The translations under genes and the position numbers were made by a program. From a virus: a DNA stretch of 50,809 bases. Every line of letters starts with the position of its first letter. Within the stretch, counting starts at the first letter, position 1. Shown piece after piece: positions 1 to 34,296 of the stretch. A model generated the notes under the pieces. That model saw nothing but the letters and a program-made list of their open reading frames with translations, ran no database searches and was not told the DNA's origin. Location: positions 1 to 50,809 of IMG/VR virus record IMGVR_UViG_3300017917_000139; one strand, 5' to 3'.

Positions 1-924
1 GGCACCAAGGCTACTACCAGCGTCACCAGGATTAGGCATAATCCATATACGATCAAAATACTCACCTAATATTCTGTTGGCTAAACAATTTAGCGCAACT
101 CCTCCCATATAAACTAAATTCTTACTGGCTCCTAGGTCTCGAGCTCTTAACATTATATTACCTATTAGATCTTCTGTCAACTCTTGCACATGATAAGCCA
201 TGTTCATATCATCATGCGGACGCACTACTTCTTCAGGAACGCCAAGATGAAAATTGTGTTGAAACGTAATGTCTTGCTCGCTGTCGATGACACTGCGTCT
301 TAGTCTAATATCAGCAATACTGTCATACTTGCCCCAACCACTCATACCCATTAAAATATATTCTTCGTCTAAGGGTTTGAGTCCTGCGTCTTTGGTAAAG
401 GCACTGTACATTAGGCCAATACTGTGCGGGTAACGCTGACTCCACAGTTTTTTGTATCGTACACCACCACCCTTTTCATCATAGTGTGCTGACCAAATGC
501 TAGCAGTGTCCCACTCGCCTATGGCATCGATAACCACCACAGTGGCATCAGTGAATGGACTAGTTTGAAATCCAGCTGCCGCATGACTTAGGTGATGATT
601 AAAGTATTTGATTGGTAAATTATGTAACCCAGCGTTGGGTGCAACTCTTTGTAACTGCCCTTTAAGATCGTGTGTCTTAAATACTTCTCCATACTGCCCA
701 GCATACAGCTGACGTGTACGTTTGAGCCAGGGTTTTTCATAGTAGGCTATGCAGTCAAACGACCCAGCATATTTGAGTGCATCCTTAATTAAATCTGGAT
801 GCAGCTCACTGTCGTGTTTAAGTTTGCTGTAGCGTTCGCTATGCCCAGCAAATACAATTTTTCCATTACTCACGGCTGTTACAGCCGCATCATGAAATCC
901 AGCTGAGATTCCTAGTATATTCAT
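1..924 (-). CDS. NodU/CmcH/TobZ-family carbamoyltransferase (3' end outside window)
   Basis: This family transfers a carbamoyl group from carbamoyl phosphate, through an enzyme-bound carbamoyl-adenylate, to a hydroxyl on a sugar or small molecule. The visible 308 residues are the N-terminal part of a protein usually about 550-600 residues long. Seen motifs: GFHDAA at 9-14 (H11, D12), NHHLSHAA at 109-116 (metal-ligand type histidines 110, 111, 114), IDAIGEWD at 132-139, and near the edge MPNPGDAGSSLGA, matching the family's GDAG block. The frame is open to base 1, so the stop lies beyond the window. The start ATG shares one base with the stop of the 33-residue gene upstream (TAATG), so translation is probably coupled. 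It ends the visible cassette of radical SAM and glycosyltransferase genes, which suggests a final tailoring step. Family confidence is high; the substrate is unknown. Confidence 0.9.
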   Translation of the reverse strand, partial: MNILGISAGFHDAAVTAVSNGKIVFAGHSERYSKLKHDSELHPDLIKDALKYAGSFDCIAYYEKPWLKRTRQLYAGQYGEVFKTHDLKGQLQRVAPNAGLHNLPIKYFNHHLSHAAAGFQTSPFTDATVVVIDAIGEWDTASIWSAHYDEKGGGVRYKKLWSQRYPHSIGLMYSAFTKDAGLKPLDEEYILMGMSGWGKYDSIADIRLRRSVIDSEQDITFQHNFHLGVPEEVVRPHDDMNMAYHVQELTEDLIGNIMLRARDLGASKNLVYMGGVALNCLANRILGEYFDRIWIMPNPGDAGSSLGA

Positions 925-1025
925 TATTTGTAGATAAACGGATCTCTTTTACGTAGTTCTTTTAATTTTTTTCGATAGTTAATTTCTAACTTAATTCTGT
1001 TTATAATATTGCGAAACCAATTCAC
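924..1025 (-). CDS. Small basic 33-residue protein (GTG start), conserved-looking phage peptide
   Basis: This short gene starts at GTG with a strong ribosome site, AAGGAG at 1033-1038, seven bases upstream. It ends with TAA overlapping the ATG of the carbamoyltransferase, and its first 35 bases overlap the end of the SGNH-like gene. The product begins MNWFRNII, has a Lys/Arg-rich helical middle and ends RKRDPFIYK. I recall, without being able to check, that small proteins with a similar DPFIYK tail occur in marine T4-like phages. No signal peptide or transmembrane segment is apparent; an amphipathic basic helix is likely. Function is unknown. It could be a regulatory or membrane-associated peptide, or a substrate for the nearby radical SAM enzymes, but there is no direct evidence for either. 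Confidence 0.75.
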   Translation of the reverse strand: MNWFRNIINRIKLEINYRKKLKELRKRDPFIYK

Positions 1026-1815
1026 TATAGTTCTCCTTGATATGCTTAAATGCGTCACTGTGCGCAAGTTCTAATGGGTGTGTTGTACCGAACGGATATT
1101 TTTCATCTCTTGCCCATGTATAAAAACCTCGATTACCTGGAAACCAAATCCAACGATCTAAATTTATCTGTGAATGTAAAATTTTTAGAGATTCGTCAGG
1201 GCAGTGTCTAAGATTGCCTAATAGGCATTCATCTACTGCGGTAAAGATATAGGGTATATTTTTTAAAGTAAGATATTGTTGTAATAATACAATCTCAGTA
1301 TAGCTACTCCACAACTGCCAAACTCCGCTGTTACCTATGTGTTTATAAAAAGACTTAGCGAAATCACTAGTTCCTGTTCGTTTGGCTCTTTCTAAATGAT
1401 CTATATGATTTTGCAAGATTATTTCATTATCTGTTTTAAAATCTTTTTTTAGATCTTCAACATTGTCAAGGATGCTCCATGGAGTTATGTTGTACCAATT
1501 GCGCCATTTTTCGCCAGTATCATAATCAAATCGAAATTCAAATCTACTAGGGAAACTCCAACACACAAAAACTAAATCAATGTCAGAATTTTTTTCGCAT
1601 GCGTTCATAACCGTGCGACGAATAGCGCCGTTGGCAAATCCTGGATAGGCCACGCACTCGTATTGCTGTCCTAATTCTCGAGCCAACAGTGCTGTAAATG
1701 TACTTTGACTAATTACTTGTCTTGCTGGCTCGTTGGTTATGTTGTTATAAGGAATCGCACAGTCAGCTAACTCGCTACCCCATATAAAACTATCACCCCC
1801 TACTACTATAGTCAT
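991..1815 (-). CDS. SGNH/GDSL-hydrolase-like protein
   Basis: A 274-residue protein. It opens with a beta strand followed by GGDSFIWG (residues 6-13), the block I GDS motif of SGNH hydrolases. A hydrophobic strand VFVCWSFPSRFEF follows, and near the C-terminus is GTTHPLELAHSDAF (about 243-256), which could supply the catalytic His. SGNH enzymes are esterases that often add or remove acetyl groups on glycans. The GDS serine is at residue 9; the block III Asn is not obvious, so activity is uncertain. The ATG lies within the end of the preceding gene (23-base overlap). Its place between a radical SAM gene and a carbamoyltransferase fits a role in modifying a sugar or surface molecule. Annotating it as an SGNH-like protein is safer than assigning an esterase. 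Confidence 0.65.
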   Translation of the reverse strand: MTIVVGGDSFIWGSELADCAIPYNNITNEPARQVISQSTFTALLARELGQQYECVAYPGFANGAIRRTVMNACEKNSDIDLVFVCWSFPSRFEFRFDYDTGEKWRNWYNITPWSILDNVEDLKKDFKTDNEIILQNHIDHLERAKRTGTSDFAKSFYKHIGNSGVWQLWSSYTEIVLLQQYLTLKNIPYIFTAVDECLLGNLRHCPDESLKILHSQINLDRWIWFPGNRGFYTWARDEKYPFGTTHPLELAHSDAFKHIKENYSELVSQYYKQN

Positions 1816-2881
1816 ATCCTGGCCTCATAATATCTATTTGTTGTTGTTCGTATGTTGAATCACTCCAACAATAATCATACGTGCAACTTATGTTGTTCAC
1901 TTCAATTTTATATATATCTAAATGAGAACTCAATTGATCCCATATATCTTGGTAATTTGTAGTACCAAAACTGCCCAGCAAATCAACTTGGCCAATTGGG
2001 AGATATCCTAAACTAAGTTTAGGGTCTTGGTAATCTCTGCCATTATCTGCTAGCCACTTTCTAAAATTTACTTGTTCAATGTTGTGCCATACCTGGCTAC
2101 CACCATATACTACATCGTTGCCCCATTCAACATCAAACTCTCCGCTGTAGTATTTTAATTCAGTTATGGCTTCACAAACTGTATCTGTTAATTCAGGCGC
2201 ACCTTCATCACGAAATACTTCGTACAAGGTTTTTCCTATTTGAGTCCAGTGCATGTATACCCCACCTAGTACGCGATCATATCCATTGGATAAAAACAAT
2301 TTTCTGTGTTCATCACGTAGTTCATATCTTGGACTGTTGAGGAACGTTGTGATTTGACTAGGGCGCACCCAATATGGCATAATCTCTAATTTTCTTTTGC
2401 TTAATATGAGATTTTCTAATTCGTGACAAAGATTATTTAATTGTCGAATAGCGTATTTGGTGTCGTAGTCTGCTCGTTTGTAATAACTGCTTAGTTCCCA
2501 AACTGTTCCTTGTAGTCTTTCAAAATGATTGTGTAGTACATTTAACACTTCGTGATTAGGGCCCATGTCAGAACCTACAACTGTGTCTTGGGAATAATAA
2601 TCAGATATATGATATTCTGCACCAAAAAAGTTATTAATTGTGGATGCGTGTCTGTTAAGTTCTTTGCAGAGATATTCTATGGTTCTTTGTGTTTTTGGGA
2701 AGCCTAAAAAACAAAAGTTTTTTTCTAATAGATTTTTTGATTGTAATAGATGCTCAAGACCTAAGATCCAATCTTTTGCTAGTTCGTTATCATGCACAAG
2801 AATATTATATTCAAGTTGATCTTTAAAATTTAAAGGATTACGTAGTACTACTTTAACAGTTGATTGATTGGTACCATTCAT
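1793..2881 (-). CDS. Conserved phage protein of unknown function (362 residues)
   Basis: No domain is recognised. The protein is mixed alpha/beta and rich in Tyr, Trp, Asn and His. It has a helical middle containing LCHELENLILSKRKLE and a C-terminal part with YLPIGQVDLLGSFGTTNYQD. No signal peptide or membrane segment is visible. The ATG at 2881 was chosen because it shortens the overlap with the upstream radical SAM gene (stop at 2853); an in-frame GTG at 2899 would add six residues, and neither start has a clear Shine-Dalgarno site. It sits between a radical SAM gene and an SGNH-like gene in the overlapping chain, so it is likely expressed with them and may act on the same substrate. Function cannot be inferred. 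Confidence 0.7.
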   Translation of the reverse strand: MNGTNQSTVKVVLRNPLNFKDQLEYNILVHDNELAKDWILGLEHLLQSKNLLEKNFCFLGFPKTQRTIEYLCKELNRHASTINNFFGAEYHISDYYSQDTVVGSDMGPNHEVLNVLHNHFERLQGTVWELSSYYKRADYDTKYAIRQLNNLCHELENLILSKRKLEIMPYWVRPSQITTFLNSPRYELRDEHRKLFLSNGYDRVLGGVYMHWTQIGKTLYEVFRDEGAPELTDTVCEAITELKYYSGEFDVEWGNDVVYGGSQVWHNIEQVNFRKWLADNGRDYQDPKLSLGYLPIGQVDLLGSFGTTNYQDIWDQLSSHLDIYKIEVNNISCTYDYCWSDSTYEQQQIDIMRPGYDYSSRG

Positions 2882-4166
2882 ACGCTTGAGGACGCTCACT
2901 TAATATATCTGCTAATGTGTACTTATCGTTACGTATTGACTCAAGTTGCAGAATACGATTTTTACCTCGCACAAGACCGGCTGCCCATTCGTTAGGCCAC
3001 TGCTCTTGAAATGTAGGGCGTGTCTTTAGTTTCTCTAACATGTCCCTCAACGGCCTTTTTTGCTCAACTACTGCGGGGCCAAGGTTACCCAATATTTCGT
3101 CTATCCAAGGATCTAATATATCCCGGGGTAGTGCCAGAGGTGACATGATTATGTCTGGTGAGAAACTAAAGACAACTTTAGCTAAGATGTCTACTCCCAG
3201 CTCTTCAGCAAGCTGGGCAATTCTTGTGACTTCAAACATTCCTGGGAGGGTGAGCGTGAAGTCAATGCGCATCTGACGTCGGTGACTTGCGATCTCAACT
3301 CCTTGACGGAAGTTTTCAAGCCACTGAGGATAATCAAGTCCTGTTCTAATATATTCACCAATTGCTCCTGTTCCATCGAGACTGGCGCAGATTTGCCAAT
3401 CACGTAGGTTACGTAGTATGTCGTAATAAAGATTGGTACCGCGATAGTTAACACGGCTAAGATTAGTGTTGTACCTTGCGCAGACATTTGGTCCATCTCC
3501 TAGTTCAACAATGCGCCGCATATAGCGCCAGTGTTGTTCGTACATTAGTGGCTCTCCGCCTACCCAATATACTTCTTCTACTTGATGGTTCTCGACTGCA
3601 CTTGCGAACTCTTGTTCAATTTGTGTTGATTGAAACTGTTCAATTTGTTGTTTGACTTCGGGGCGCATCCAATTATTCTTTGGATCATGCCAATTGATCA
3701 TGTTATGTTGACGCTGTTCTGATTCCCATGCGCTGGATAACATATCCCCGCACATGCGACATTTGAAATTACACAAGTTACTAAAGCGATAATCCCAGCT
3801 AATGGGTTTTACTGAAGTAGTGCCATCTGCTTCGGTATGCTCTAGCACATACTCATACTTATGTCCGAAGAGGCTATTAAAATAACTACGGTAAACGTCA
3901 GTGTTGAGCAATTTATCATTACAGACTTCACACTCAGGCAAGGTTTCTCCAGCCATCATACGTCTGCGCACACTCCGCATGTGCTCACTGTTCCAGTGTT
4001 CATCGAGTGTAATGGGTATGTACTTGCCTGTGCCAGATTCAGTATCGATATATTGTTTAAAGTTCTGCGCAGGCTCGCGTGATGCACAGCACATGCGGCG
4101 CTCAGTCTGAGGACTTAGGTACGTGTGTACCCAAGGTGCTAGGCAGAGTGTGCTTGGTCTATCCAT
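2853..4166 (-). CDS. Radical SAM protein with N-terminal twitch-like cysteine region
   Basis: 437 residues. The radical SAM cluster-binding motif CxxxCxxC is seen as CNFKCRMCG (C132, C136, C139), and the SAM-binding GGEP motif is at about 203-206 (VGGEPLMYE). Before the core, CLAPWVHTYLSP (C8), MCC (C26, C27) and CEVC (C79, C82) form the cysteine-rich N-terminal region that marks the 'twitch domain-containing' radical SAM proteins found in phages and bacteria; this region probably binds an extra iron-sulfur cluster. Such enzymes generate a 5'-deoxyadenosyl radical and often modify peptides or sugars. It overlaps the upstream glycosyltransferase-like gene by 28 bases. The fold is closely similar to each half of the tandem protein at 5211-7769, which suggests duplication. 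Substrate unknown. Confidence 0.9.
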   Translation of the reverse strand: MDRPSTLCLAPWVHTYLSPQTERRMCCASREPAQNFKQYIDTESGTGKYIPITLDEHWNSEHMRSVRRRMMAGETLPECEVCNDKLLNTDVYRSYFNSLFGHKYEYVLEHTEADGTTSVKPISWDYRFSNLCNFKCRMCGDMLSSAWESEQRQHNMINWHDPKNNWMRPEVKQQIEQFQSTQIEQEFASAVENHQVEEVYWVGGEPLMYEQHWRYMRRIVELGDGPNVCARYNTNLSRVNYRGTNLYYDILRNLRDWQICASLDGTGAIGEYIRTGLDYPQWLENFRQGVEIASHRRQMRIDFTLTLPGMFEVTRIAQLAEELGVDILAKVVFSFSPDIIMSPLALPRDILDPWIDEILGNLGPAVVEQKRPLRDMLEKLKTRPTFQEQWPNEWAAGLVRGKNRILQLESIRNDKYTLADILSERPQAYEWYQSINC

Positions 4167-5218
4167 TGTTTTATTTTTTCAAAATTTTCTAAATTAATTT
4201 TTTCGCAGTTCTTTTTAAACTGTTCTGATTTAATTATATTTAAATTATGTTCTGTGGCTGTTAAAATATTATTTTCTAGTTTAGTGATACTGCTGTTCTT
4301 GATAGTTTCTAATAGATTAAAAATTTTATTCATTCGATCAAAGTCGTCTATACAATCATCATGCGAAAGATCTATATCGTAGTCAAAATTTAATCCTAGG
4401 TTAGATAGATTTTTCAAAGTTCCAAATTGTCCTACAGGTATCAATGCTTGTCCTGCTAGCAAAGGTTTCCATGTTTTTTCTGTCAGATACGGAGTTGGCA
4501 TAGTAACTATTGTATTATTAACTGTGGTATGACTATTGAAAAAACTTTCATTGGTCAGATTAAACACACAATCAGTGTAGGCAGGATTTTGCCAGTTACC
4601 ATTCTTCATTGCGGAATTATCTTGTTCTGAGAAGGTATCAAACTTAATTGATTCTAACTTTATCACTGATTCTACATAGTGTTTAATATTATCTGGTAAC
4701 TGTATATTATATCCAAACTTTTGATTATGCCAACTTAATACCAATTGTTCCTTAGGAAAACTCTCATTTAAATATCCTGTAATAGTAGCTCGAGGCCACT
4801 CATTACGATAACTAAGGCTACTTAATTTTTTACTTTTTTTCTTATATGAATCAGCTATACCGTGGTGATCGATAGCATTGTTTAGTTGGTCTCCCCAAGT
4901 GATCCACTTTACATAGCGTACATTATCGGGCCAAAAATTTTCATTAAGATCCCCATCAGACAGTAACAAAAAATTCTTATGTTTATTTTTATTAAAAAAT
5001 TCTAGTAGAGAAGAAATATTAAAATTTTCTGTGTGAAAACTAATAATTATATCTTTGTAAGGCACTTCGGGTACTTGTTCAATATGTTGAACGTTAAGCA
5101 TGAAATAAATGTTGCCGCAATCTATCTGTTTAAAAACACGATAGCATCCATTCAACAGTCTTATAAATTTAATTTCTTCAAGTGGCCCAAATAAATCTGT
5201 AGTTAAATAATCATTCAT
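4139..5218 (-). CDS. Glycosyltransferase-like phage protein (fucosyltransferase-like C-terminal motif)
   Basis: 359 residues. The strongest clue is the motif PYLTEKTWKPLLAGQ followed by ALIPVGQ at about residues 240-262. It resembles the E-K-x-x-P-L-x-x-G-x-x-P-V donor-binding motif of GT10-type fucosyltransferases and related phage proteins. It is followed by LGLNFDYDIDLSHDDCIDDFDR, split here as LGLNFDYDI and a DDF segment, as in that family. The N-terminal part contains strands such as NFLLLSDGD. It is Lys/Asn-rich and more AT-rich than the flanking radical SAM genes, which hints at a separate origin. Its ATG overlaps the stop of the tandem radical SAM gene by eight bases. A role in adding a sugar during the pathway run by this cassette is inferred; the acceptor and donor are not known. 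Confidence 0.6.
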   Translation of the reverse strand: MNDYLTTDLFGPLEEIKFIRLLNGCYRVFKQIDCGNIYFMLNVQHIEQVPEVPYKDIIISFHTENFNISSLLEFFNKNKHKNFLLLSDGDLNENFWPDNVRYVKWITWGDQLNNAIDHHGIADSYKKKSKKLSSLSYRNEWPRATITGYLNESFPKEQLVLSWHNQKFGYNIQLPDNIKHYVESVIKLESIKFDTFSEQDNSAMKNGNWQNPAYTDCVFNLTNESFFNSHTTVNNTIVTMPTPYLTEKTWKPLLAGQALIPVGQFGTLKNLSNLGLNFDYDIDLSHDDCIDDFDRMNKIFNLLETIKNSSITKLENNILTATEHNLNIIKSEQFKKNCEKINLENFEKIKQWIDQAHSA

Positions 5219-7769
5219 ACCCCATGGCCTTGGCTATTTCTGGGTGAGTGTCTAGGAAACTTTGTTCACGATATTCGTCGGTCTGACGCATTTTACGCAG
5301 AAACTCTTGGCCGTCACTGCCCTGTCCGTTTTCAATGAACTGTATAATTTTATCTATTTCTACACGATGTTTGGTATTAAAATTATGTTCGGTCAGACGT
5401 TTGATTACTATTGTCTGTGCTTGACTAGTCATACGATTTATACACATAACATCAGGGTCGTGTAACATGTTAAAATAAACGTAGTCAAACTGTTGTGTTT
5501 CTAGCCAAGCACACAATTCAGGCAAATAGTAGACATTTTGAATGTTGATAGTCATACAAACTTGCGTAGTGATTTTACCATTTCTCAATTGATTAAATCG
5601 CTTGATATTTTCTTGCACTTCATTCCATACAGCACCATAACGTTCGTATTCAAAACGTTCTCCTACGTTGTCAATACTCACAGCGATTTCCACACGATTA
5701 AATTTGCGCCATAGGGCCACTTCTTCCTCGCTAGGATAAACTGTACCGTTGGTATTATAGTGTATGTCAATTCTATTACTATACTCTTGTTCTACAGCGT
5801 AGCGCAATAACTTAAAGTGTTCTTCTATTAGGAAAGGTTCTCCGCCTGTGAATTCAAAGTACTTGACATTTGGTAATAGTTCTTTTAAGTTGTCCCAGAA
5901 CAGATCATTGTTACGCGGCCAGCTACCATCTTGTAAGAACTTGTAGGCGGCGTGCTGTTTACGATCATATCCCATAATTTTAGCCACAGAAAATCTATTA
6001 GCTTCGTAGTCGATCTCTTCTTTGGCCCACTTGCTACTAGACCATGACCCACAAATACGACATTTAAGATTACAGATATTACCTAGTTTAAGATCAATAA
6101 ACCATAATTGATCAGGATTAGTGTTGTTCCAGTCAACTATAGGATAATAATTTTTCAGTCTAATACGACTATTGATACGTTTACTAGTGCGTCCAGCGGC
6201 TTCTTCGTCCCAACAACGATTACAGGTTGAAGGTTTTTCACCTTTAAGAAACTGCTGTCTTAGGTCCTGCATGTAAGGACTACGATAAATTTCTTCTAAG
6301 GTATTTTCTGTTAGACGATATGGTGTACCATCTGGCTTGGTAATTTCATCTTTAGCTAAACAACAAGGACGTGCTGTGCCCACCGGACTGGCTTCAATAC
6401 TAACCCAAGGTAGCATACAAATATTTTCGTGTGTTTTGTTTATGCCTAGATAGTCACGTAGCTCTTGATACTCTGGAAATACTGTTTCAAACTTTTCAGT
6501 TCTGGATTCATCTAGTATATCGTTTACTCGGAAGAATTCTCCCAGTAGGTGACTTTTATCATCCTGATACATAAAAGAAATAATACCTTGATAGCCCGCA
6601 GTGGCACGATTTAAATGGTCGTATGGTTTCAACCAGGCAATATGTTGTTCTATTTTTTCTCGTATACGATCTTTGTAGGCCAAGGGCAATACATCAATAC
6701 GATCACGATCAGGCCCTTGTAGAATATTAATATTCCAGTCTTGTGCTCTAAGTAAACCTTGCTCAACCCACTCGCGATGAAAGTCCATTACATGCCAGGC
6801 ATTATAGATGCTGACTGTACTACTGATATAAAAATCAACCTTAGGACATATTTCTAACATCCGGCGTCGATTATCTACAATCTCAGCCCAATCAGTTCCT
6901 TTACGTATATACTCACCGCGAGCATAGCTGTCATCTAAACTAGCACCTACGCTGACACTGTCAAATAGTTTCCAATACTCAAATACACTTTTGTCTTTAA
7001 GTCGTGTATGGCTAAAGTTAGTGTTGTAGACCAATCGCACATGGAACATTTTGCGTTTAACCAATTCTTCTAATATGCGATAGTGTTCTTCCATAATCAG
7101 AGGTTCACCGCCAGCAAAGTAGATCTGTTCAAGATAAGGAATGTGATCTTGCATTTGGGCCCACATGTCATCTTTATCTCGACCAGCATACATAAACTGC
7201 GGATGATTCAGCTTACCAAATAACTTAGACTCTTCTCCGTACCAACTACTCGAAAATAGACTACCGCAGGTTCGGCAACTAAAATTACATAGATTACTGA
7301 ATCTTATATCATAATAGCGAAGTTTAAAGTCCTCGTAGGTACCGTCTTCGTGTGTTTTATCTACTAACGCTATGTGTTGCCCAAAGTTTTTGTTAGCACT
7401 GTTACGCATACTAAAGAAACCATTAGCTTCTTGCTCGTAGCATTTTTTACACTCTTTACAGGGTTTGTCTTCCAACATGTTTTTACGCATACGTCGATAG
7501 GCTACACCATTCCATACTTCTCGCATGGTGTTTTCTCTGAGATTTCCTATAGGCAAGTGCATTTCTGCTAAACAGCAAGGATAAGCACGACCATCTGGAA
7601 ACCCGTGCAGGTGTATCCATGGTATCATACAAAAATTATCGCTTTCCATTAAACGATATGCTTGTTCTTCTGTAAGCTGATCTTTGTCTATGTAAACAGG
7701 AATTCTGTCGGTATAGTTATAAGACTTTTTGCCTCGAATTTTTTCTACTATTTTCTTTTTAATGCTCAT
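5211..7769 (-). CDS. Tandem radical SAM protein: two complete twitch-type radical SAM units in one chain
   Basis: 852 residues. Unit 1 (about 47-435) has CMIPWIHLHGF, PCC (C65, C66), CKECKKC (104-110), the cluster motif CNFSCRTCG (C161, C165, C168) and GGEP (220-223). Unit 2 (about 451-852) repeats the same order: CMLPWVSIEAS, PCC (C469, C470), CNRC (516-519), CNLKCRICG (C566, C570, C573) and GGEP (642-645). All expected cysteines are present in both, so each unit could bind its own [4Fe-4S] cluster and SAM. Typical proteins of this family contain one unit. The ATG at 7769 was chosen because it forms an ATGA overlap with the upstream stop; an in-frame ATG at 7784 is possible but less compact. 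It lies between a radical SAM gene and a glycosyltransferase-like gene. The substrate is unknown; two successive reactions or one active and one structural unit are both possible. Confidence 0.92.
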   Translation of the reverse strand: MSIKKKIVEKIRGKKSYNYTDRIPVYIDKDQLTEEQAYRLMESDNFCMIPWIHLHGFPDGRAYPCCLAEMHLPIGNLRENTMREVWNGVAYRRMRKNMLEDKPCKECKKCYEQEANGFFSMRNSANKNFGQHIALVDKTHEDGTYEDFKLRYYDIRFSNLCNFSCRTCGSLFSSSWYGEESKLFGKLNHPQFMYAGRDKDDMWAQMQDHIPYLEQIYFAGGEPLIMEEHYRILEELVKRKMFHVRLVYNTNFSHTRLKDKSVFEYWKLFDSVSVGASLDDSYARGEYIRKGTDWAEIVDNRRRMLEICPKVDFYISSTVSIYNAWHVMDFHREWVEQGLLRAQDWNINILQGPDRDRIDVLPLAYKDRIREKIEQHIAWLKPYDHLNRATAGYQGIISFMYQDDKSHLLGEFFRVNDILDESRTEKFETVFPEYQELRDYLGINKTHENICMLPWVSIEASPVGTARPCCLAKDEITKPDGTPYRLTENTLEEIYRSPYMQDLRQQFLKGEKPSTCNRCWDEEAAGRTSKRINSRIRLKNYYPIVDWNNTNPDQLWFIDLKLGNICNLKCRICGSWSSSKWAKEEIDYEANRFSVAKIMGYDRKQHAAYKFLQDGSWPRNNDLFWDNLKELLPNVKYFEFTGGEPFLIEEHFKLLRYAVEQEYSNRIDIHYNTNGTVYPSEEEVALWRKFNRVEIAVSIDNVGERFEYERYGAVWNEVQENIKRFNQLRNGKITTQVCMTINIQNVYYLPELCAWLETQQFDYVYFNMLHDPDVMCINRMTSQAQTIVIKRLTEHNFNTKHRVEIDKIIQFIENGQGSDGQEFLRKMRQTDEYREQSFLDTHPEIAKAMGYE

Positions 7770-9133
7770 AGGGTATCGTACCATTCTGCCAACTGCGGAA
7801 ATGTATATTTAAAGTCTTTGCCGCGGCGCTGATCGTATTGTTGATAAAAGTTCTTAAAGTCGCGTTGTAAGATTTCACGGCTTACTGCACCACTGTGGGG
7901 ACTGTCTACGTCTTTTAAATATGTTACTAATCTATTAATATGCTCGCGCTCAAACTCGTGTAGATAATCGTTGTACAATTCTTCGTTGTTTATGCCTAGT
8001 GTATTATTAAACAAGTGTACAAGTTTGCGACATGCTTCTTCTCTGAACTCAATTGGTAGTATTAGTGGACTTTGGAAACTTGGAAAGCGTAAGATGTTTA
8101 GAGTAAAGTTAATTGCATCTTTACCGTATTTCTTTTTAAGTTCAACAATGTCCCATAAGAACTCATCTAATGACTGTAGGCATAGGGCATTGATGGTACA
8201 CATAACATGTAGGCCTCGCAGTTTGCCGCTATCCAATAGATATAGTACATTCCCAAGCCATTGGCTCCAATCCAAGCCATCACGAATATACTCTGCGTGA
8301 CGACCTTGGCTCTCATTGCTGGTATAGATGTCAAGCTCAATGCCTTCACACGCTTCCAGAAGTCTTTCAAGTTTTTCACGTTCAAATCCTAGGTTACTGT
8401 TAATTGCTAATCGGGTCTTGCTCTTACCTTTATTATCTTTGAACCAATCAATAAGTCTCCATAAGTACGGACTCATTAACGGCTCACCACCTGTGATGCG
8501 TAGTTCCTTTAGGGTTCTGTGGAGGTCTGACTCCCACCACTTAAAGAACGCTTCAGCGTAAGGGTTAATTTGATCAGGAGTAAAAAGTTGACTACTATCG
8601 TGAGGGTGAGTAAAGTGATTGCGTCCGTCAGATACGAGATTCTCATAGGCTCCATTGCGCTTAATATCTCGTACCCAGGCAGTACTGAAAGCAGGGTTAC
8701 AATAGCTACAAGCAAACTGACAAGTTCTGTCGAATGCAATTTCAAGCGTTTGTAAATTAACATCATCTTGGTAATTAGTTTTGTAAGCAAGATCTAAATC
8801 CTCATCACTGTAAATAATTGTTTTGTAAATACGGTCACTTGATGCGCCCGCATCTTCTAGCTTCCAGCAATACTCGCAACCAGCTGGTCGTTCACCCGCT
8901 TGCATTTGTCTGCGTTGTTCTTTCTTTTCTTGTGTATTGTGTATAGCCTTAGGATTAAAAGTAATTTCCTGTGGATTAATAGCGTGAGGTAATGGATGAT
9001 GACAACTAGTAGTCTGTCCTGAGCCTAGCCAGATAGTAGCGTTATACCACTTGGCACCGCAGAAGCTGGCGCTCTTAGTGTCTATCACACGTTCTTTGTA
9101 TTCAATTAATGTTTCGTTAGGCTTTTTCGGCAT
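7766..9133 (-). CDS. Radical SAM protein, 'AKW' subtype, paralogue of the gene at 9117-10520
   Basis: 455 residues. The cluster motif is CQFACSYCN (C138, C142, C145) and the SAM-binding motif is TGGEPLM (214-220). The N-terminal region has FCGAKWYNATIWL (C25), SCHHPLPHAI (C44) and CEYCW (C86, C89). This region is shared position by position with the next gene upstream but differs from the PW/CC type of the other two radical SAM genes in the cassette. The core is followed by a long helical C-terminal part without an obvious SPASM-type cysteine cluster. The gene starts 17 bases inside the upstream gene and ends in an ATGA overlap. It is probably one of a pair of enzymes working on related substrates, or a heterodimer; that is inference. 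Confidence 0.9.
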   Translation of the reverse strand: MPKKPNETLIEYKERVIDTKSASFCGAKWYNATIWLGSGQTTSCHHPLPHAINPQEITFNPKAIHNTQEKKEQRRQMQAGERPAGCEYCWKLEDAGASSDRIYKTIIYSDEDLDLAYKTNYQDDVNLQTLEIAFDRTCQFACSYCNPAFSTAWVRDIKRNGAYENLVSDGRNHFTHPHDSSQLFTPDQINPYAEAFFKWWESDLHRTLKELRITGGEPLMSPYLWRLIDWFKDNKGKSKTRLAINSNLGFEREKLERLLEACEGIELDIYTSNESQGRHAEYIRDGLDWSQWLGNVLYLLDSGKLRGLHVMCTINALCLQSLDEFLWDIVELKKKYGKDAINFTLNILRFPSFQSPLILPIEFREEACRKLVHLFNNTLGINNEELYNDYLHEFEREHINRLVTYLKDVDSPHSGAVSREILQRDFKNFYQQYDQRRGKDFKYTFPQLAEWYDTL

Positions 9134-10520
9134 GCCACTTACACTCGTTCCAAAATTCTCGCATCTGCGGAAACGTTTCTAAAAATGTGCTGACACCATA
9201 TTGTAGTGTGGCGTTGCGTTTATCGTACTCGTTAAAGAAACGATAAAAGTCAGCACGTTGCTGTTCTATATATTTAGGTTCTAGTTCTTGCCCTTGGCGC
9301 ATCCATGCTAGGTTACGTTCCATACGCTGTATTTCGTAGTCTTTAAATCCTACAAAACTACCCTCAGGCATTGGGTTGTCCTTCATATATTGTACTACAT
9401 CTTCCAACACTGCGCAATAGCTAGCAGGTAATATCTGCAGGCTCTGCCATGTAGGTTGGCGTAGTAAGGGTGTATCAAACCAAACTCGTTGATAGTTATG
9501 ACTATGTAACTGTCTTAATTCTAAGATGTGTTCTAATAAACGTTTTAGACCCAAAATGTTTAAATTATTCATAGTAATAATATATGTCAAACTATTACGA
9601 TAAGGTACTTCGGTTAGATACCTATGTACGTAAGTGTTAACGCGGTGCAGTCCCATGCCTCTGCGGATATATGCAGCTTGATCAGGATCACCTGAATCCA
9701 AACTCACATACTGCATAAAATGTTCTATGCGCTCATCTGTACACAGTTCTTTTACTTTAGCTAGGTACTTGTTAAACAGTTCTGGTTCAACACTGAAGTT
9801 ACTGGTCACGTCAACGTGCAAGTCACTCTTAGGAAAATTTAGTATGTAGTCAAACACACGATGCGTATTTTTATCCATAAGTGGCTCACCGCCTGTCATA
9901 CGGAAGTGACGTAGGCTACCGTATAGTTCAGGCCACCACTGCCAAAATGCTTCAAGCCAGGGATTGTGTTCACGTGCAGGTATAGGACGGCGATGGCCTT
10001 CAAAGTAACTAGGATCATTATGATTGTTACTTGTAGGATACGCACCCCAACGTGCAATATCTTTGCCCCACTCTGTGCTGAACTGTGGACTACAGTATGA
10101 GCAGGCCAGATTACAAGCATGGTTAAAGTTTACTTCTACATAGCTAGGTGTAGCATCCATATCCCAAGGCGCATTAACTATCTCTTCATAATGTTCTGCG
10201 GCCCAAGGTTCACCACTACGATAATGTCTATCACTTAGTTGCCCGTTATCCTCAGCTGACCAGCAATAGCTACATTCACCAGGTCGTTGTCCCGCTAACA
10301 TCAACTTACGTTGCTCTTTCTTGTGTGCTGTATTATGTAAGGCGCTGGGATAAAACGTTAATGGTGCTACAGGTATTTCATGCAGAGGTGGATGGTAACA
10401 ACTGTTGGTCATGCCTGTGGTTAAGTGTAAGCTGACCTGTTGCCATTTAGCAAGGCACAGTGCAGGACCCAATTGGTCGCGCATCTGTTCGGCACTGTTC
10501 ATAAAATCACTTTTACTCAC
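9117..10520 (-). CDS. Radical SAM protein, 'AKW' subtype
   Basis: 467 residues. Motifs: CNLACSYCS (C136, C140, C143), TGGEPLMD downstream, and the N-terminal cysteine region LCLAKWQQVSLHL (C22), SCYHPPLHEI (C41) and CSYCW (C83, C86). It aligns along its length with the product of 7766-9133, including the HNTxxKKEQR segment, so the two arose by duplication. The start used is a GTG that overlaps the upstream stop in GTGAGTAA, with AGGA about ten bases upstream; ATG at 10502 is the alternative and would remove six residues. Radical SAM chemistry is secure; the reaction is not. Neighbours on the upstream side are glycosyltransferase-like genes, so a carbohydrate-linked substrate is plausible. Confidence 0.9.
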   Translation of the reverse strand: MSKSDFMNSAEQMRDQLGPALCLAKWQQVSLHLTTGMTNSCYHPPLHEIPVAPLTFYPSALHNTAHKKEQRKLMLAGQRPGECSYCWSAEDNGQLSDRHYRSGEPWAAEHYEEIVNAPWDMDATPSYVEVNFNHACNLACSYCSPQFSTEWGKDIARWGAYPTSNNHNDPSYFEGHRRPIPAREHNPWLEAFWQWWPELYGSLRHFRMTGGEPLMDKNTHRVFDYILNFPKSDLHVDVTSNFSVEPELFNKYLAKVKELCTDERIEHFMQYVSLDSGDPDQAAYIRRGMGLHRVNTYVHRYLTEVPYRNSLTYIITMNNLNILGLKRLLEHILELRQLHSHNYQRVWFDTPLLRQPTWQSLQILPASYCAVLEDVVQYMKDNPMPEGSFVGFKDYEIQRMERNLAWMRQGQELEPKYIEQQRADFYRFFNEYDKRNATLQYGVSTFLETFPQMREFWNECKWHAEKA

Positions 10521-11418
10521 GTACCATTGGTCCTAGATTTTTAAAGTTACTCTTATAGTGATGCTTAAAGAACTTGCTTTCTTCAGGATCCATGTCCACA
10601 ATAGGCAGGCCTAACCGTGTGCGTAGTACTTCGCCTAAACGCTGACAATGTTCCACTGGCTCGTTACTGTTTTCGTATTCTTTCCATAGTGCAGCCAGTG
10701 CATCAAAATCTTGTACTTGTTTATAATCCCACCAGTCATCTAACATAGTAATGTATGTACCAAGACGTGCACCATATATAGCCCAAAAGCCGTTTTCTAC
10801 ATCTGCGCCTACTGTGTGCCAAATGCACAAATGATCGTAGTTGCGACTGTGTACACGTTTGTTAAATTCTTCAACGCTAGGCTTCACTCCGCGGTCTAGG
10901 CACATTTTAACACCCTCACGGAAACCTGCTCTCCATGCTTGGAACGGCGTTTGATTTGGGTACGTAATTGAGTAACAGTCGTGCATGGCCCAGTAGTCTG
11001 GGTAAAAACAAAACTCTACATCGTTAGCCGCACTACCGTCTGATGCTTCATGTGTTCGCATGGTTTGGATAAATTCTTTAGTCCAGCAACTCATTCCTCC
11101 GTTGCCGTATTGGAGTCCGTTAATCTCGTTCCGCGCCTTCCAACGAAAAACTTTAGTACGGTTGCTGTCATCAAGATGAAGTTGAAGGTTAAAAAATTCA
11201 GGATTCGGCAGATTATCACCGTCAATAAGTATGAAACGTTCTGTGTCACTTGCGTCAGCCGCCGCTTTATGTGCTGCATCACTACCCTTTACTCCGTCTA
11301 CACGCTTGGCCCAAGGCACCATGTTTTGAATCTTAATCCAAAACTCTTCTTTCTTAGGTTCATCATAGCTTAGATATATGCAATCTAAGTCTGCTACATC
11401 AACTATTTCTACGCTCAT
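10513..11418 (-). CDS. Glycosyltransferase-like protein with DGDN motif
   Basis: 301 residues. FILIDGDNLPNPEFF (63-77) resembles the DxD region that binds metal and nucleotide-sugar in GT-A-fold enzymes, and NGGMSCWTKEFI further on resembles the acceptor-side Gly-Gly segment seen in these proteins. The start at 11418 is supported by GGAG four bases upstream; the longer in-frame ATG at 11430 would place that site inside the gene. It overlaps the small gene upstream by 20 bases and the radical SAM gene downstream by eight. No signal peptide or membrane segment is seen, so it is probably cytoplasmic. Fold assignment rests on motifs only; a nucleotide-binding protein without transferase activity cannot be excluded. 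Confidence 0.65.
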   Translation of the reverse strand: MSVEIVDVADLDCIYLSYDEPKKEEFWIKIQNMVPWAKRVDGVKGSDAAHKAAADASDTERFILIDGDNLPNPEFFNLQLHLDDSNRTKVFRWKARNEINGLQYGNGGMSCWTKEFIQTMRTHEASDGSAANDVEFCFYPDYWAMHDCYSITYPNQTPFQAWRAGFREGVKMCLDRGVKPSVEEFNKRVHSRNYDHLCIWHTVGADVENGFWAIYGARLGTYITMLDDWWDYKQVQDFDALAALWKEYENSNEPVEHCQRLGEVLRTRLGLPIVDMDPEESKFFKHHYKSNFKNLGPMVRE

Positions 11419-11767
11419 AATACTCCACATCGCTTGATTCTTCGTGAGGTTCTACCACGACACTAGCATGATATTTTACTACTTTAACACCTTTATCGCT
11501 AGGTGTCAATGGAAAATGTCGAGTGTACACTGGTTTACGTTTAACAATTTTTCCATCAATAACCCAAAGCCACTGCCAATCATGTGTGTCATATAAAGCT
11601 CTATCAATTGAAATCCAAAGATCTCCGCTGGGATAATCGCTAGCGGAAAATGTGTATACTTTGCCTTCACAGTCGTAGTAAGCACGTAGATCTTCCACAT
11701 ACTCAACTACTTCTATGTTTTCAAATGCTTTGAGAAATTCTTGTTCAGCCAAGGAAAGATTTTTCAT
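11399..11767 (-). CDS. Small protein of unknown function (122 residues)
   Basis: No domain recognised. The protein is acidic at the start (MKNLSLAEQEFLKAFEN), then Tyr/Trp-rich with DLWISIDRALYDTHDWQW, followed by a basic KIVKRKPVYTRHF segment and an acidic tail. No signal peptide or membrane helix is visible. The gene overlaps both neighbours (22 and 20 bases), which are glycosyltransferase-like, and is therefore almost certainly real and co-expressed. A compact beta-rich fold is likely from the alternating hydrophobic pattern. It could be a small partner of the adjacent transferases, but no evidence beyond position supports this. Confidence 0.65.
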   Translation of the reverse strand: MKNLSLAEQEFLKAFENIEVVEYVEDLRAYYDCEGKVYTFSASDYPSGDLWISIDRALYDTHDWQWLWVIDGKIVKRKPVYTRHFPLTPSDKGVKVVKYHASVVVEPHEESSDVEYYERRNS

Positions 11768-12557
11768 AATAGTGTACAGGTTGATATTGGTTTACATTGT
11801 TAATACGTAGCACATCGCTGTGTTCTACATTTACATAGTCAATCCACGGCTGACTGTCGTTCCATCCTTGTATTGCTGATTTCATATGTACAAAGTTAAA
11901 GAAATCTAGTGTAGGTATTGTATACCGTTCTTCCCCTAAAATTTTAACAGCCAGAGCAAACACCACATCAGTAGTAGGTTCACTATCGCACTGTACTAGT
12001 GTGTTTTTTACTGTGTCCCATTCGGAATATATCTGTTTGACCAATCTAAATAGATTTGTTGCAGTTTGCGTGTACCGCATATAGTACATGCCTGTGTATA
12101 TGTCAGGCAACTCGTTTTGTTTAAACAAGTTTCTATATGGTGTTTGGGTAACAACATTACCACGATAATCTCTGCAATGATAACTAAAACAAACATCATG
12201 TAATCTCAATGCCGGCAACCAATGTGATACATCTCGAGTAAACAGCAGGTCACTTTCAACTTTAATTGTTTCTTTGTAGGGAGTCAGTGCAAACACCTGA
12301 CTTTCATTTTTAAGTTTCCAGCTATCATCCTTAGACAAGTCCACTGGCAAAATAATAATATGATCAAATGTCTTTCTATGTCCTGTGGTTAGATGTTCAG
12401 CAGTGTGTTCATCTACAATCACGGTATAGCTGTTTAACTTCTGCGTGGCCTTGATATTTTTTGCCTGCTCATATGCCAAGTGCAGATAGTCTGTGTCGCT
12501 ATTTTGCGCAATAGTTACCCAACCAAATTGTTCTTTAAACTCACGCACCGATAACAT
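11745..12557 (-). CDS. GT8-like glycosyltransferase-family protein (DxD replaced by ESD)
   Basis: 270 residues. The layout matches the upstream paralogue: GWVTIAQNSDTDYLHLA near the N-terminus, then a central strand ending TIKVESDLLF (97-106), where nucleotide-sugar transferases carry DxD, then a C-terminal region with DVVFALAVKIL. Here the motif reads E101-S102-D103 rather than DSD, so metal binding may be altered. The ATG at 12557 was chosen because it places 11 residues before the conserved GWV strand, as in the paralogue; GTG at 12584 and ATG at 12581 are longer alternatives that increase overlap with the upstream gene. Neither has a clear ribosome site. Likely a cytoplasmic sugar transferase or a relative that has lost activity. 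Confidence 0.65.
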   Translation of the reverse strand: MLSVREFKEQFGWVTIAQNSDTDYLHLAYEQAKNIKATQKLNSYTVIVDEHTAEHLTTGHRKTFDHIIILPVDLSKDDSWKLKNESQVFALTPYKETIKVESDLLFTRDVSHWLPALRLHDVCFSYHCRDYRGNVVTQTPYRNLFKQNELPDIYTGMYYMRYTQTATNLFRLVKQIYSEWDTVKNTLVQCDSEPTTDVVFALAVKILGEERYTIPTLDFFNFVHMKSAIQGWNDSQPWIDYVNVEHSDVLRINNVNQYQPVHYYEKSFLG

Positions 12558-13323
12558 CCTTGACAAATTTAGCACAAGCATCACTGGTCAGCCAAGCCTT
12601 ACTCATAATGTGTAGATTCTGTTTAGGTACTACATAGGCTTTTCCACGGCTTTTTACATATATTTGATCGTTGTTTAGTTCCAAACTATCAATGGTATTT
12701 TGTATGCTTAACATAGGCCATGGAATATAATTTGATGTATCTTGGCTGTAGCCATTTAGCACAAGATCTGCAATAGTAAAGGCATAGTCGTTTCTAAAGT
12801 TTGCCGCATCAATATTATACAGTTGTTGATAGTAAGCGTAATTGCGCTCGATTCTGGCTACAAAATCAAATAGCATTTTACTTTTAGGAGTGCGATTAAA
12901 TGCAATCACGGTGGCCCACACATGTTCTAATCCGTATTTGCCCATAGGCTCAGTGATGTTACTGTCCAGATATTGATTGTGTCTGATGATATTATAATCT
13001 GTTACTGTTTGTAAAACTTTTAGCAGACTATCATCTAATATAAAATAGTCGCTGTCTATTAATATAGTTTGATCGTAAGGGCTTAACTCGTAGGCCATAT
13101 GACGTTTTTGATTGTGCCATGTTTCAAACTGGTCTGAATCTACGTTGTATCTTCTGTTTGTTAAATCACTTGGCTCAGTTGTGATAACTGTGACTGGTAA
13201 ACCTAGATACTTTTCTGCTAACCTAGCAGACTGCTTTGCAATAGATACGTAGTCAATTGTTTCTGTATTAGTAGCAAATATTACAACACCTTTAGATTTT
13301 TCTAATGCGTTTGAGTTCGTCAT
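12541..13323 (-). CDS. GT8-like glycosyltransferase-family protein with DSD motif
   Basis: 260 residues. After a short N-terminus comes GVVIFATNTETIDYV and then SIAKQSARLA, the nucleotide-binding strand and helix. TILIDSDYFI (86-95) contains D90-S91-D92, the metal/nucleotide-sugar DxD motif, and the C-terminal part has RNDYAFTIADLVL, where GT8-like enzymes carry acceptor-binding residues. It aligns with the next gene downstream over most of its length, which indicates duplication. It overlaps the small gene upstream by 32 bases and the paralogue downstream by 17. It would act in the cytoplasm on an activated sugar; donor and acceptor are unknown. Confidence 0.7.
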   Translation of the reverse strand: MTNSNALEKSKGVVIFATNTETIDYVSIAKQSARLAEKYLGLPVTVITTEPSDLTNRRYNVDSDQFETWHNQKRHMAYELSPYDQTILIDSDYFILDDSLLKVLQTVTDYNIIRHNQYLDSNITEPMGKYGLEHVWATVIAFNRTPKSKMLFDFVARIERNYAYYQQLYNIDAANFRNDYAFTIADLVLNGYSQDTSNYIPWPMLSIQNTIDSLELNNDQIYVKSRGKAYVVPKQNLHIMSKAWLTSDACAKFVKDVIGA

Positions 13324-13606
13324 GTTGTATATGCCATTGATTCATTACTAAGTGATATTGCTCTTTACATAGCGTGAGAAATTCTAATCTATTAATTTTA
13401 ATAGGGTTCTCGTATATGTCTGCTAAAAATATTTCACTATCTTCCCAAGAGTTTAAAAATGCAATTAACTCTGGCGTGATCTTAAACATACCACCGTTGT
13501 GAGCTATGTGTAAGTCTGTTAGTATTTTTTCTTTAAGAAGACGCTTGTTTATTTGATAATCTGTAGCTAATTTGATTTGTGCTACTAATTCATTTGCTGT
13601 TGACAT
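13292..13606 (-). CDS. Conserved phage protein of unknown function (104 residues), first gene of the cassette
   Basis: A small, mostly helical protein starting MSTANELVAQIKLATDYQ, with DLHIAHNGGMFKITPELIA in the middle and a basic end (DELKRIRKI). I recognise the general pattern from marine T4-like phages, where similar proteins are annotated as hypothetical; this is memory, not a search. It is the most upstream gene of the overlapping chain that runs to base 1. Only 32 bases separate its start from the terminator at 13639-13664. No clear promoter or strong ribosome site lies before it. It ends inside the GT8-like gene. Role unknown. Confidence 0.7.
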   Translation of the reverse strand: MSTANELVAQIKLATDYQINKRLLKEKILTDLHIAHNGGMFKITPELIAFLNSWEDSEIFLADIYENPIKINRLEFLTLCKEQYHLVMNQWHIQHDELKRIRKI

Positions 13607-13638
13607 AATAATAATTATCTCAAAAAGTTGTAGTCAAA

Positions 13639-13664
13639 ATAAAAGCACTCTAAGGTGCTTTTAT
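13639..13664 (-). terminator. Hairpin terminator after the tail-fibre genes
   Basis: A perfect 10-bp stem (ATAAAAGCAC / GTGCTTTTAT) with a six-base loop lies 28 bases after the stop of the last structural gene. On the minus strand the A/T-rich stem is followed by TTT. It would end leftward transcripts from the tail genes before the radical SAM cassette. The pairing in the sequence is exact; termination efficiency is inferred, and the short T-run suggests it may leak. Confidence 0.75.
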
Positions 13665-13691
13665 TGTAGCAAAAAAATGTGTTCAGGTCAA

Positions 13692-14630
13692 TTAGTTGAG
13701 TGTAGTTGCAGTGGTCACTACACCCCAAACGTTTGCTATATTTGTGACTTCTGGATAGGATACAATTACATTACATCCGATGGTCATATTGATAGCATCA
13801 TCAAAAGTATCAGTAGCATCGTCAACATAGTAAGATGTAAATGTCAAAATTGTACCTGTATCAGCATTACTACCTTGTACTCCGTTTGATCTAACTGCAA
13901 CGTTTACATAGTTAGTAGTATAATTTGCCTGCGTTTGCGTTAATCTGATTAGCAGCTGATCGCTGGTTGTTAAGTCATAATATCCAATAGCACTACCATC
14001 GGTGGTCAATGTACCACCCGAACCTGATCGTGTGCTGGTCAGCGCATCTAATGAAATTGTTGCTAGATTAGCTGTTAGTATATTTGTCCATGATTGCTCT
14101 TTAAAGTTATCTGTACCTGCAGATGCAGACCAAGATAGTGTGATTCTTCCGCCAGCATTGAAAAAGTATCGTGCAGCATCTGCACTGGCAAAGGTCACAG
14201 TTCTAATTTGTTGGAACAATGTAGGAGTAGCTTGGTTCCATACAGCAGTTAATGTATTTGTGGCGCTAGTACTGCGAGAAGTAAAATTTAAACGGTTATT
14301 AAATGCTGTAGTAATATTAGTTGACAGAGTACCTATAGCTGAAATGACATCTCCAGTTACCGGGCTAGTAATACCGCTGCCTGTTCCAGCTTGGTGTACT
14401 AAAATACTGTTTAATCGAGCAATTAATGTACTCCATTGAGTCGCTGTAACTGTATCTCCTACCGCAACTGCTGCTAAAGTAGTTCCCTGTCCGTACCCTC
14501 TGTCCCCGTTACCTACTCCCCATACTGAGTTAATATTTGCTACAGCGTGGTTTGCGGCACCAGTTGCACTACCAGTTGCAAAGGTATTATATTCATTTCT
14601 TAAAATCACATCACCAGTCTGGTATGCCAT
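13692..14630 (-). CDS. Virion structural protein, probable tail-fibre-associated
   Basis: 312 residues, low in charged residues and rich in Thr, Ser, Ala, Asn and Gly, as phage fibre proteins are. It starts MAYQTGDVILRNEYN, followed by a helical part with QWSTLIARLNSIL and a C-terminal beta-rich half (for example LTTSDQLLIRLTQTQANY). It is the last of a row of fibre-type genes and ends just before the hairpin terminator. AAGGATT lies about six bases before the ATG. Similar proteins in marine T4-like phages are listed as structural; no enzymatic motif is visible. It may form the tip or a collar of the fibre complex, but this is a guess from position. Confidence 0.7.
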   Translation of the reverse strand: MAYQTGDVILRNEYNTFATGSATGAANHAVANINSVWGVGNGDRGYGQGTTLAAVAVGDTVTATQWSTLIARLNSILVHQAGTGSGITSPVTGDVISAIGTLSTNITTAFNNRLNFTSRSTSATNTLTAVWNQATPTLFQQIRTVTFASADAARYFFNAGGRITLSWSASAGTDNFKEQSWTNILTANLATISLDALTSTRSGSGGTLTTDGSAIGYYDLTTSDQLLIRLTQTQANYTTNYVNVAVRSNGVQGSNADTGTILTFTSYYVDDATDTFDDAINMTIGCNVIVSYPEVTNIANVWGVVTTATTLN

Positions 14631-33200: not shown

Positions 33201-34296
33201 TCTGTACATTTTGTATAGGAACTAATCTAACTAATTTCTCACTTACTCCTGGAACATTAATTAATCTAACCTGCCATACACCGTAACGGTTAGCTTCTGG
33301 CACTACATATCCTGCATCGTATCCAGGAATAGCAGCATTAGATACTGGGTCTAATACGGTAGGATTTATAAATGCTTCTTCACCCCAATTTTCAGTACCT
33401 GGTGGTATGATGAATATTAGATATTTTCCGTCTAGTGAACCTGTTATGCCAGCGTATCCAGGATACTTGGCTAAAAATTGACTGATAAATTTGTTTTGTA
33501 AATCAGCGTATGGTAACGGTGCCGCATAATCTACATTGTAGACATTGGGCATAGTTGTAAATCGTTCTTGTGCGTTGGCTTGAGGAACTCTGAATGTTAT
33601 GGTTCCTGAGTCAATACCATTATTTTCAACACCTTCTACATCTCTTGAGCTGATAGTTGGTGTTGCACTCACTACCCCGTCGGTTCCTAATTCACTTTGT
33701 ATCCAGAAAGGAAATCCTGGTTGGTTAACAATAAATTTATAAGTACCGCCTCTGGCTAAGGTAACACTATAATCTCTTTTGCCACCGGCAGTGAAAATAT
33801 ATTGATTGGTTGCGGAATCTCTTGTAACTATGTAAGTTTCCGTTAAATCAACTCCAGAGGTGTTAACTTGAACAGCGTCTGGCCCGTTAGGCAACCAATA
33901 GTACTGGCTAAAGTTAACTAATTTGTCGTAGCTGATCTGTGGATCAAAACTATAGTACTCGCTGTCAAATAGACGGCTATGATTGTTAATTTTACCGCCA
34001 TAGTATTTGATCTTGTTTAATAAATCAGGATAGCTACTAAAGAACGTTATCTCATTGGATTTGTTTGTTACAACTACACTAGGTTCAAGTTGATAGTTCT
34101 GACGTGGCCCTGTGGACTCAGTAACATAACTGTCACCAGTTTTAAAAGTAGGTGCAAATTTTCTGCCTATGTATCCGTATAGTTTAACTAGATTTGGTTC
34201 TTCTATTAACTGATCCATTGTTGCTGATAAAAACTTGGTGTTTGTATCAGATCTGAATATCGTTGGAAGAAAATTTATTGTCTTTTTAACAGCCAT
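21226..34296 (-). CDS. Giant 4356-residue virion protein at the gp7 position, with FG-GAP-like beta-propeller
   Basis: The order gp53-gp5-gp25-gp6-this gene matches T4, where gp7 (1032 residues) follows gp6. The N-terminus ([46 protein letters not shown]) fits the giant structural proteins of marine T4-like phages. From about residue 2260 to 3010, seven segments have FG-GAP character (for example [29 protein letters not shown] with [27 protein letters not shown]), suggesting a seven-bladed beta-propeller. An extra module ([30 protein letters not shown]; about 2549-2593) interrupts the fourth blade. At about 866-905 is a strand module with [15 protein letters not shown], and at about 3675-3737 a Gly-rich [14 protein letters not shown] repeat pair. 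No stop or frameshift was seen over 13 kb. It probably spans the outer baseplate and may bind host glycans or proteins. Confidence 0.85.

Follow-up and report, generated by a model that had tools for sequence, protein, structure and literature searches.

The 50,809-base window analysed here, which is the whole stretch of an IMG/VR virus record, ends in a cassette of glycosyltransferase-like (GT-like), radical S-adenosylmethionine (SAM), SGNH-type and carbamoyltransferase genes, the enzymes of which very probably share a surface sugar as their common target. Our tentative reading, to which we give slightly less than an even chance, is a phage-encoded cytoplasmic pathway of glycan assembly and tailoring that is genetically tied to the neighbouring fibre-like protein TF1, with TF1 as the likeliest acceptor. 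Since the genes are inherited together in a fixed order, a phage-borne modification pathway is very probable.

On the minus strand a T4-like structural operon, comprising a baseplate wedge, a virion protein of 4,356 amino acids (aa) and several fibre-like proteins, is followed by the cassette, which runs from 13,606 to 1 and thereby to the contig end. In the order of reading the features are as follows.

13692-14630 (-): TF1, fibre-like and Ser/Thr-rich (25.6%), last gene of the structural operon
13607-13691 (-): gap from TF1 to the cassette, with a hairpin of terminator type and a sigma-70-type promoter (TTGACC-17-TACAAT)
13292-13606 (-): U4, conserved, 104 aa, first cassette gene
12541-13323 (-): GT1, glycosyltransferase-like, with invariant DxD (D90, D92)
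11745-12584 (-): GT2, homologue of GT1, with invariant ExD (E110, D112)
11399-11767 (-): U3, small and variable
10513-11430 (-): GT3, GT-like, with a GT-A/nucleotidyltransferase-like N-terminal half and a DGD motif
9117-10520 (-): RS1a, N_Twi radical SAM protein
7766-9133 (-): RS1b, N_Twi radical SAM protein
5211-7784 (-): RS2-RS3, two fused N_Twi radical SAM units
4139-5218 (-): U2, accessory protein of a variable family, with an E247-K248 motif
2853-4166 (-): RS4, N_Twi radical SAM protein
1793-2899 (-): U1, 368 aa
991-1815 (-): SGNH-type hydrolase/acyltransferase-like protein
924-1025 (-): p33, 33-aa microprotein with GTG start and the C-terminus KRDPFIYK
1-924 (-): CT, NodU/TobZ-type O-carbamoyltransferase, incomplete at the contig end with 308 aa, as against about 495 aa in relatives

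The same gene order was found in about 100 IMG/VR loci of uncultured large myoviruses. The search with RS2-RS3 gave 24 loci and that with RS1a at least 80 loci (420 relatives); the relatives' contigs are fragments, and the similarity-search lists comprise a limited number of best matches, so that frequencies drawn from them are not population estimates. The kept order is TF1-U4-GT1-GT2-U3-GT3-[accessory]-RS1a-RS1b-RS2-RS3-[accessory]-RS4-U1-SGNH-p33-[second SGNH]-CT, with some insertions and few losses. The 36 distinct loci that are complete from GT1 to CT span 13-20 kb and contain 5 to 7 radical SAM units, and the same order was seen in an independent locus sample anchored on the tail gene T5. 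An earlier note on this DNA had described one chain of genes behind the tail genes and had suggested asking whether they are scattered among relatives; the open reading frames (ORFs) and their order proved to be as described, and the genes are not scattered. Several marine contigs (among L190-L201) have the same TF1-U4-GT1-GT2-GT3 order at lower identity, and the matches with the tail-fibre order in marine metagenome-assembled genomes are probably for the most part phage contigs binned among bacteria.

The linkage to TF1 is equally regular. In profile searches GT1/GT2 follow in all 68 of 68 TF1-anchored loci, and GT3 with radical SAM genes in 47/47 of those with room, while TF1 precedes in 78/78 GT2-anchored loci, where GT3 and radical SAM genes are present in 58/58 with room; these two sets share contigs and ancestry and do not represent independent events. 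In the three cassette-free relatives (L215/L216, L246, L271) the fibre genes are succeeded by genes on the other strand, and TF1 is absent as well. The TF1 protein of the window gave no PHROG match and no match in PDB or among GenBank phages.

Pairwise distance correlations over 81 distinct cassettes were used to describe the inner structure of the cassette. The distances of TF1, U4, GT1 and GT2 covary (0.54-0.74), with U3 joining them less strongly (0.45-0.58), those of RS1a, RS1b and RS4 track the tail gene T5 (0.55-0.72), and those of U1 and the SGNH protein have almost no correlation with any other gene. The mean identity was 66-74% for RS1a, RS1b and RS4, 69% for T5 and 39% for TF1. In two loci (L245, L300) a different radical SAM type, recognised by eye from CxxxCxxC, stands after GT3, and in two others (L531, L508) the GT core is present with no N_Twi match in the available stretch. 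As judged by these comparisons the cassette is modular, consisting of a TF1-linked GT core, a backbone-tracking radical SAM block, tailoring genes that can be exchanged, SGNH among them, and a module for the carbamoyltransferase; because of the distance correlations together with the loci where N_Twi is exchanged or absent, the GT core may be regarded as tied to TF1 and the tailoring modules as added to it. The joint modification pathway proposed in the earlier note thus keeps its fixed-order co-inheritance but is not indivisible, since there are loci (L531, L508, L245) in which the GT core and the carbamoyltransferase module lack an N_Twi block and U1 and SGNH are nearly independent.

Five radical SAM units in four proteins, one of which is a fused double unit, all belong to NCBIfam NF033640 ("twitch", N_Twi) with scores of 269-401 bits (E 7e-82 to 6e-122) against a curated cut-off of 170 bits, and the CxxxCxxC and GGEP motifs, which the earlier note had already recognised as complete in all five, are kept in every unit together with the four N-terminal 'twitch' cysteines (alignment A9). 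CxxxCxxC is kept in 321 of 321 distinct full-length homologues, and the genes are under purifying selection. In many relatives RS2 and RS3 are two separate genes. Viperin, cytosylglucuronate decarboxylase and MoaA, which are among the nearest relatives of solved structure, have nucleotides or sugar nucleosides as substrates. The window encodes one more radical SAM protein (45844-47415 (+), 523 aa), which matches Pfam Radical_SAM, is not of the N_Twi type and lies directly after the late sigma gene.

Among the GT-like proteins GT1 and GT2 are homologous (98% in hhalign), and GT3 is the best conserved, with 69-82% identity. The predicted model of GT3 (predicted local distance difference test, pLDDT, 74) was compared by Foldseek and VIA-align with known structures and matched mixed GT-A and nucleotidyltransferase chains at Z 6-7.5; this fold assignment was not retained beyond a broad GT-A/nucleotidyltransferase likeness, which is compatible with other folds. 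In the bacterial contexts, which come from GT3 genome-scan loci only, a chromosomal GT3 homologue in Ruegeria sits among GT4-type glycosyltransferase genes, and in Bdellovibrionota contigs GT3 is paired with an N_Twi-like radical SAM gene. In three Bdellovibrionota loci (L197, L204, L207) GT3 is followed, consecutively or nearly so, by another GT3-like gene and one for a radical SAM protein; L204 contains in addition a U1 homologue that has a radical SAM gene and a gene resembling asparagine synthase as neighbours. Of the three or four glycosyltransferase-like proteins counted in the earlier note, GT1, GT2 and GT3 can be kept as GT-like, whereas the fourth, U2, has no family match in the window protein and no Pfam support in 19 relatives; its assignment as a GT10 fucosyltransferase (GT-B/GT10-like) was based on motif likeness by eye and was dropped.

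U4 has no family match. The predicted model of U1 is confident (pLDDT 85), its relatives are uncharacterised phage proteins only, and neither Foldseek nor VIA-align gave a significant PDB match; Atu_ph07, to which a U1 structure match pointed, was set aside, having no N_Twi match and no U1 match, the latter in a search without a positive control. The SGNH-like protein of the earlier note is sustained by its catalytic residues, as S9, N62 and H246 are invariant and G59 and H252 nearly so (alignment A4), and by matches to PDB GDSL esterases (E 0.008-0.04), though it has no Pfam family above the cut-off and its relative f7 is below the GDSL cut-off too.

The carbamoyltransferase named in the earlier note is confirmed by its Carbam_trans_N domain, which scores 119.9 bits against a gathering score of 24. 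The metal motif HHxxHA is present as HHLSHA in the window sequence and is found in 48 of 50 relatives; the C-terminal domain would lie beyond the contig end. CT relatives of solved structure act as O-carbamoyltransferases on sugars and natural products. Upstream of CT, p33 begins with GTG at 1025; its end shares one base with the CT start codon. In 49 distinct coding sequences of p33 the residues Y17, R18, L21, L24, D28, P29, F30 and Y32 are kept without exception while the codons vary freely, for which reason p33 must be translated and strongly selected, and the 33-residue protein of the earlier note is accepted as a real gene. No Pfam family and no match among GenBank phages were found for it.

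The short length of p33, its invariant C-terminus and its presence in all 37 of 37 distinct loci having RS4, U1 and CT would suit a pathway for a ribosomally synthesised and post-translationally modified peptide (RiPP), in which the radical SAM enzymes modify p33 or another peptide as a short precursor. The entry 8vpo, which ranks first among the PDB sequences matched by the radical SAM profile, points the same way, as it serves as a reference structure in a paper on RiPP recognition elements (PMC12710340). We consider this explanation very doubtful. The C-terminal residue pattern of p33 matched at least 120 viral stretches, and in the loci of this family a carbamoyltransferase lies within 1.5 kb downstream in 76 of the 89 with enough downstream DNA (53 directly adjoining), whereas an N_Twi radical SAM gene is upstream in only 9 of the 33 that extend 6 kb or more in that direction. 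By its neighbourhoods p33 is a companion of the carbamoyltransferase and not of the radical SAM enzymes; as the sole precursor candidate it was dropped after these counts, and the peptide target proposed in the earlier note loses its natural candidate. Also, no protease or exporter was recognised in the cassette, and glycosyltransferases and SGNH proteins fit such a pathway poorly.

The microproteins ending in KRDPFIYK (L464-L559) are 33-72 aa long, mostly 33-51 aa and soluble, and in many phages, including some loci that lack radical SAM genes, they are paired with a carbamoyltransferase of the NodU type. Two versions of 51 aa (L474, L499) have a hydrophobic N-terminal segment. A partner role of p33 is plausible because the saxitoxin carbamoyltransferase SxtI has been proposed to work with the small unknown proteins SxtJ and SxtK (PMC2679770). 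A stronger version, in which the radical SAM enzymes and glycosyltransferases modify TF1 to give a radical-modified, glycosylated and carbamoylated adhesin and the KRDPFIYK protein is at the same time an obligate activator or targeting subunit of the carbamoyltransferase, is rather improbable as a whole; if true, each of the two would add a new form of protein modification in phages.

The choice of acceptor depends on the linkage described above, on the location of the enzymes and on the timing of their synthesis. A transmembrane-like segment was found in 19 of 1,284 cassette ORFs, mostly in one radical SAM gene, and two segments only in a stray ORF of 146 aa, and so the cassette enzymes look soluble. 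Membrane enzymes being nearly absent and the TF1 linkage being obligate, TF1 is favoured as acceptor. Concerning timing, the gap between TF1 and U4 contains a hairpin with a T tract in 47 of 71 relatives, and 30 of 72 gaps have a sigma-70-type promoter that matches 11 or more of the 12 consensus bases, against 0.4 expected in shuffles; the same count was 0/48 before fibre genes of the TF2-4 family and 19/70 before genes of mostly non-structural regions. The motif TATAAATA, that of the T4 late promoter, was found before U4 in 0 of 74 gaps and before TF1 in 6 of 12. The cassette consequently falls in the host-polymerase promoter class, and early expression may be supposed from this arrangement.

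In the window itself the only TATAAATA (6.6 expected by chance) is at 44943-44950 (-), just upstream of the first structural gene and adjoining a late-sigma-factor gene (PHROG 12791, 44991-45872 (+)). The motif looks depleted elsewhere in the window, and the structural operon as a whole seems to depend on one late promoter of the T4 type. Within this operon a fibre-like protein (14642-16219 (-)) has near its C-terminus a match to the Peptidase_G2 intramolecular chaperone just below the cut-off (E 9.5e-05), which suggests possible self-cleavage on trimerisation.

In the main rival reading the enzymes, made early, would alter the host surface glycan bound by TF1, so that progeny are spared re-adsorption to debris and superinfection by competitors is blocked. 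The sigma-70-type promoter and the lack of TATAAATA before the cassette agree with such remodelling, it also accounts for the TF1 linkage, since receptor and fibre must match and TF1 and the enzymes would travel together, and the same role has been proposed for pelagimyophage glycosyltransferases (PMC7029224). It is nevertheless possible rather than likely, as no flippase, polymerase or membrane glycosyltransferase was seen in the cassette. Known seroconverting phages use such membrane proteins (GtrA/B/C).

Several points weigh against modification of TF1 by a glycan pathway. GT1, GT2 and GT3 have no Pfam match, GT1 has no PDB sequence match, and the fold match of the GT3 model appears weak at its Z of 6-7.5. 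The promoter class is neutral or favours host-surface over virion modification. TF1 correlates in distance with GT1/GT2 at 0.56-0.59, with RS1a at 0.50 and with T5 at 0.46; these values are too alike to separate, and strict coevolution of TF1 with GT1/GT2 beyond linkage was therefore abandoned. Because the genes are adjacent, the co-inheritance of TF1 with the cassette may be mere linkage.

A further explanation assigns the glycosyltransferases, radical SAM enzymes and carbamoyltransferase to DNA hypermodification, where they would decorate a hydroxymethylated base. Clusters for DNA hypermodification contain such enzyme classes, and a dCMP-deaminase-like gene, recognised by eye, is present downstream in relatives. 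This is highly improbable, however, since among 15 long relatives a single PF00303 gene, scoring like true thymidylate synthase (339-369 bits), is present in 13 and none in two; with at most one per contig, these incomplete records show no second copy able to be the hydroxymethylase. No TET/JBP (PF12851) match was obtained in a search without a positive control, and the cassette adjoins tail fibres. The region downstream of the cassette in relatives (L008, L010, L022, L218-L222) includes, besides the deaminase-like gene, an APS-kinase-like gene and f17, which has GT3-resembling repeats; further downstream, on the opposite strand, DegT aminotransferase and NAD-epimerase-like genes are located. 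These last two agree with a glycan pathway, as do the GT4-type neighbours of the Ruegeria GT3 homologue and the pairs of GT3 with radical SAM genes in Bdellovibrionota.

The families of the radical SAM and carbamoyltransferase genes, the co-inheritance, the class of promoter and the scarcity of membrane enzymes are results of the computations. For the glycan pathway tied to TF1 we infer the following catalytic steps, acceptor and early expression, and with them the functions of GT1-3, U1-U4 and the radical SAM enzymes. The cassette enzymes would be made by the host polymerase from their own sigma-70-type promoter, probably ahead of the late virion proteins. GT1, GT2 and GT3 would transfer sugars onto the acceptor, the N_Twi radical SAM enzymes would remodel sugars either while these are bound to nucleotides or once they are part of the growing glycan, acyl groups would be attached or removed by the SGNH proteins, and CT, aided by p33, would O-carbamoylate a sugar hydroxyl; with TF1 as acceptor the result would be a tail bearing a decorated glycan. 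For this gene set the simplest pathway would begin with glycan building in the cytoplasm and go on to radical remodelling, acyl exchange and carbamoylation.

The pathway genes are present in hundreds of uncultured phage contigs, yet the core proteins GT2, GT3, U1, U4 and TF1 have no match among 50,697 GenBank phage records. The cassette offers a defined and testable gene set for the question whether glycan genes beside phage tail fibres modify phage or host. It also gives a large radical SAM family that is still uncharacterised a clear setting among glycan genes, and it reveals a conserved microprotein as a partner of carbamoyltransferases of the NodU type.

The statement of the earlier note that no phage system with this set has been described was too strong, since similar gene mixes have already been reported from marine T4-like phages. 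The pelagimyophage host recognition cluster, with fibres, glycosyltransferases and some radical SAM cassettes, is a large island of fibre and glycan genes beside tail fibres as in the window, for which modification of the host O-chain was suggested (PMC7029224); it is described as non-syntenic and hypervariable, while here the core is strictly ordered and contains one uncharacterised radical SAM family in 5-7 units, together with SGNH, p33 and carbamoyltransferase genes. The 4,356-aa virion protein of the window (PHROG 10938, 21226-34296 (-)) is a candidate VrlC-like protein, and a VrlC-like protein borders the pelagimyophage island. The T4-like environmental genome TARA_ERS488813_N000010 likewise has many radical SAM enzymes in one phage, namely 12 genes read as Fe-S metabolism, but no glycan cassette is described in the consulted part of that source (PMC5332604). 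In mycobacteriophages the subunits of the capsid and of the tail tube bear glycans (Freeman et al. 2023, as cited in PMC12619734); the description given there includes no radical SAM, SGNH or carbamoyltransferase set. The saxitoxin genes resemble the end of the cassette in that a NodU-type carbamoyltransferase adjoins small unknown proteins (sxtJ 405 nt, sxtK 165 nt; PMC2679770). By description the p33 type is set apart from SxtJ and SxtK, being mostly 33-51 aa, soluble, ending in KRDPFIYK and without a Pfam family. In chlorovirus capsid glycosylation a virion protein receives a glycan of conserved core and variable decorations from soluble glycosyltransferases that the virus itself encodes, which is similar to the arrangement proposed here, although these are viruses of eukaryotic algae and have no radical SAM block. 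In summary, what is new in the present cassette compared with the known systems is its strictly ordered core, the link to TF1, its class of promoter, the division into modules and the pairing of p33 with the carbamoyltransferase.

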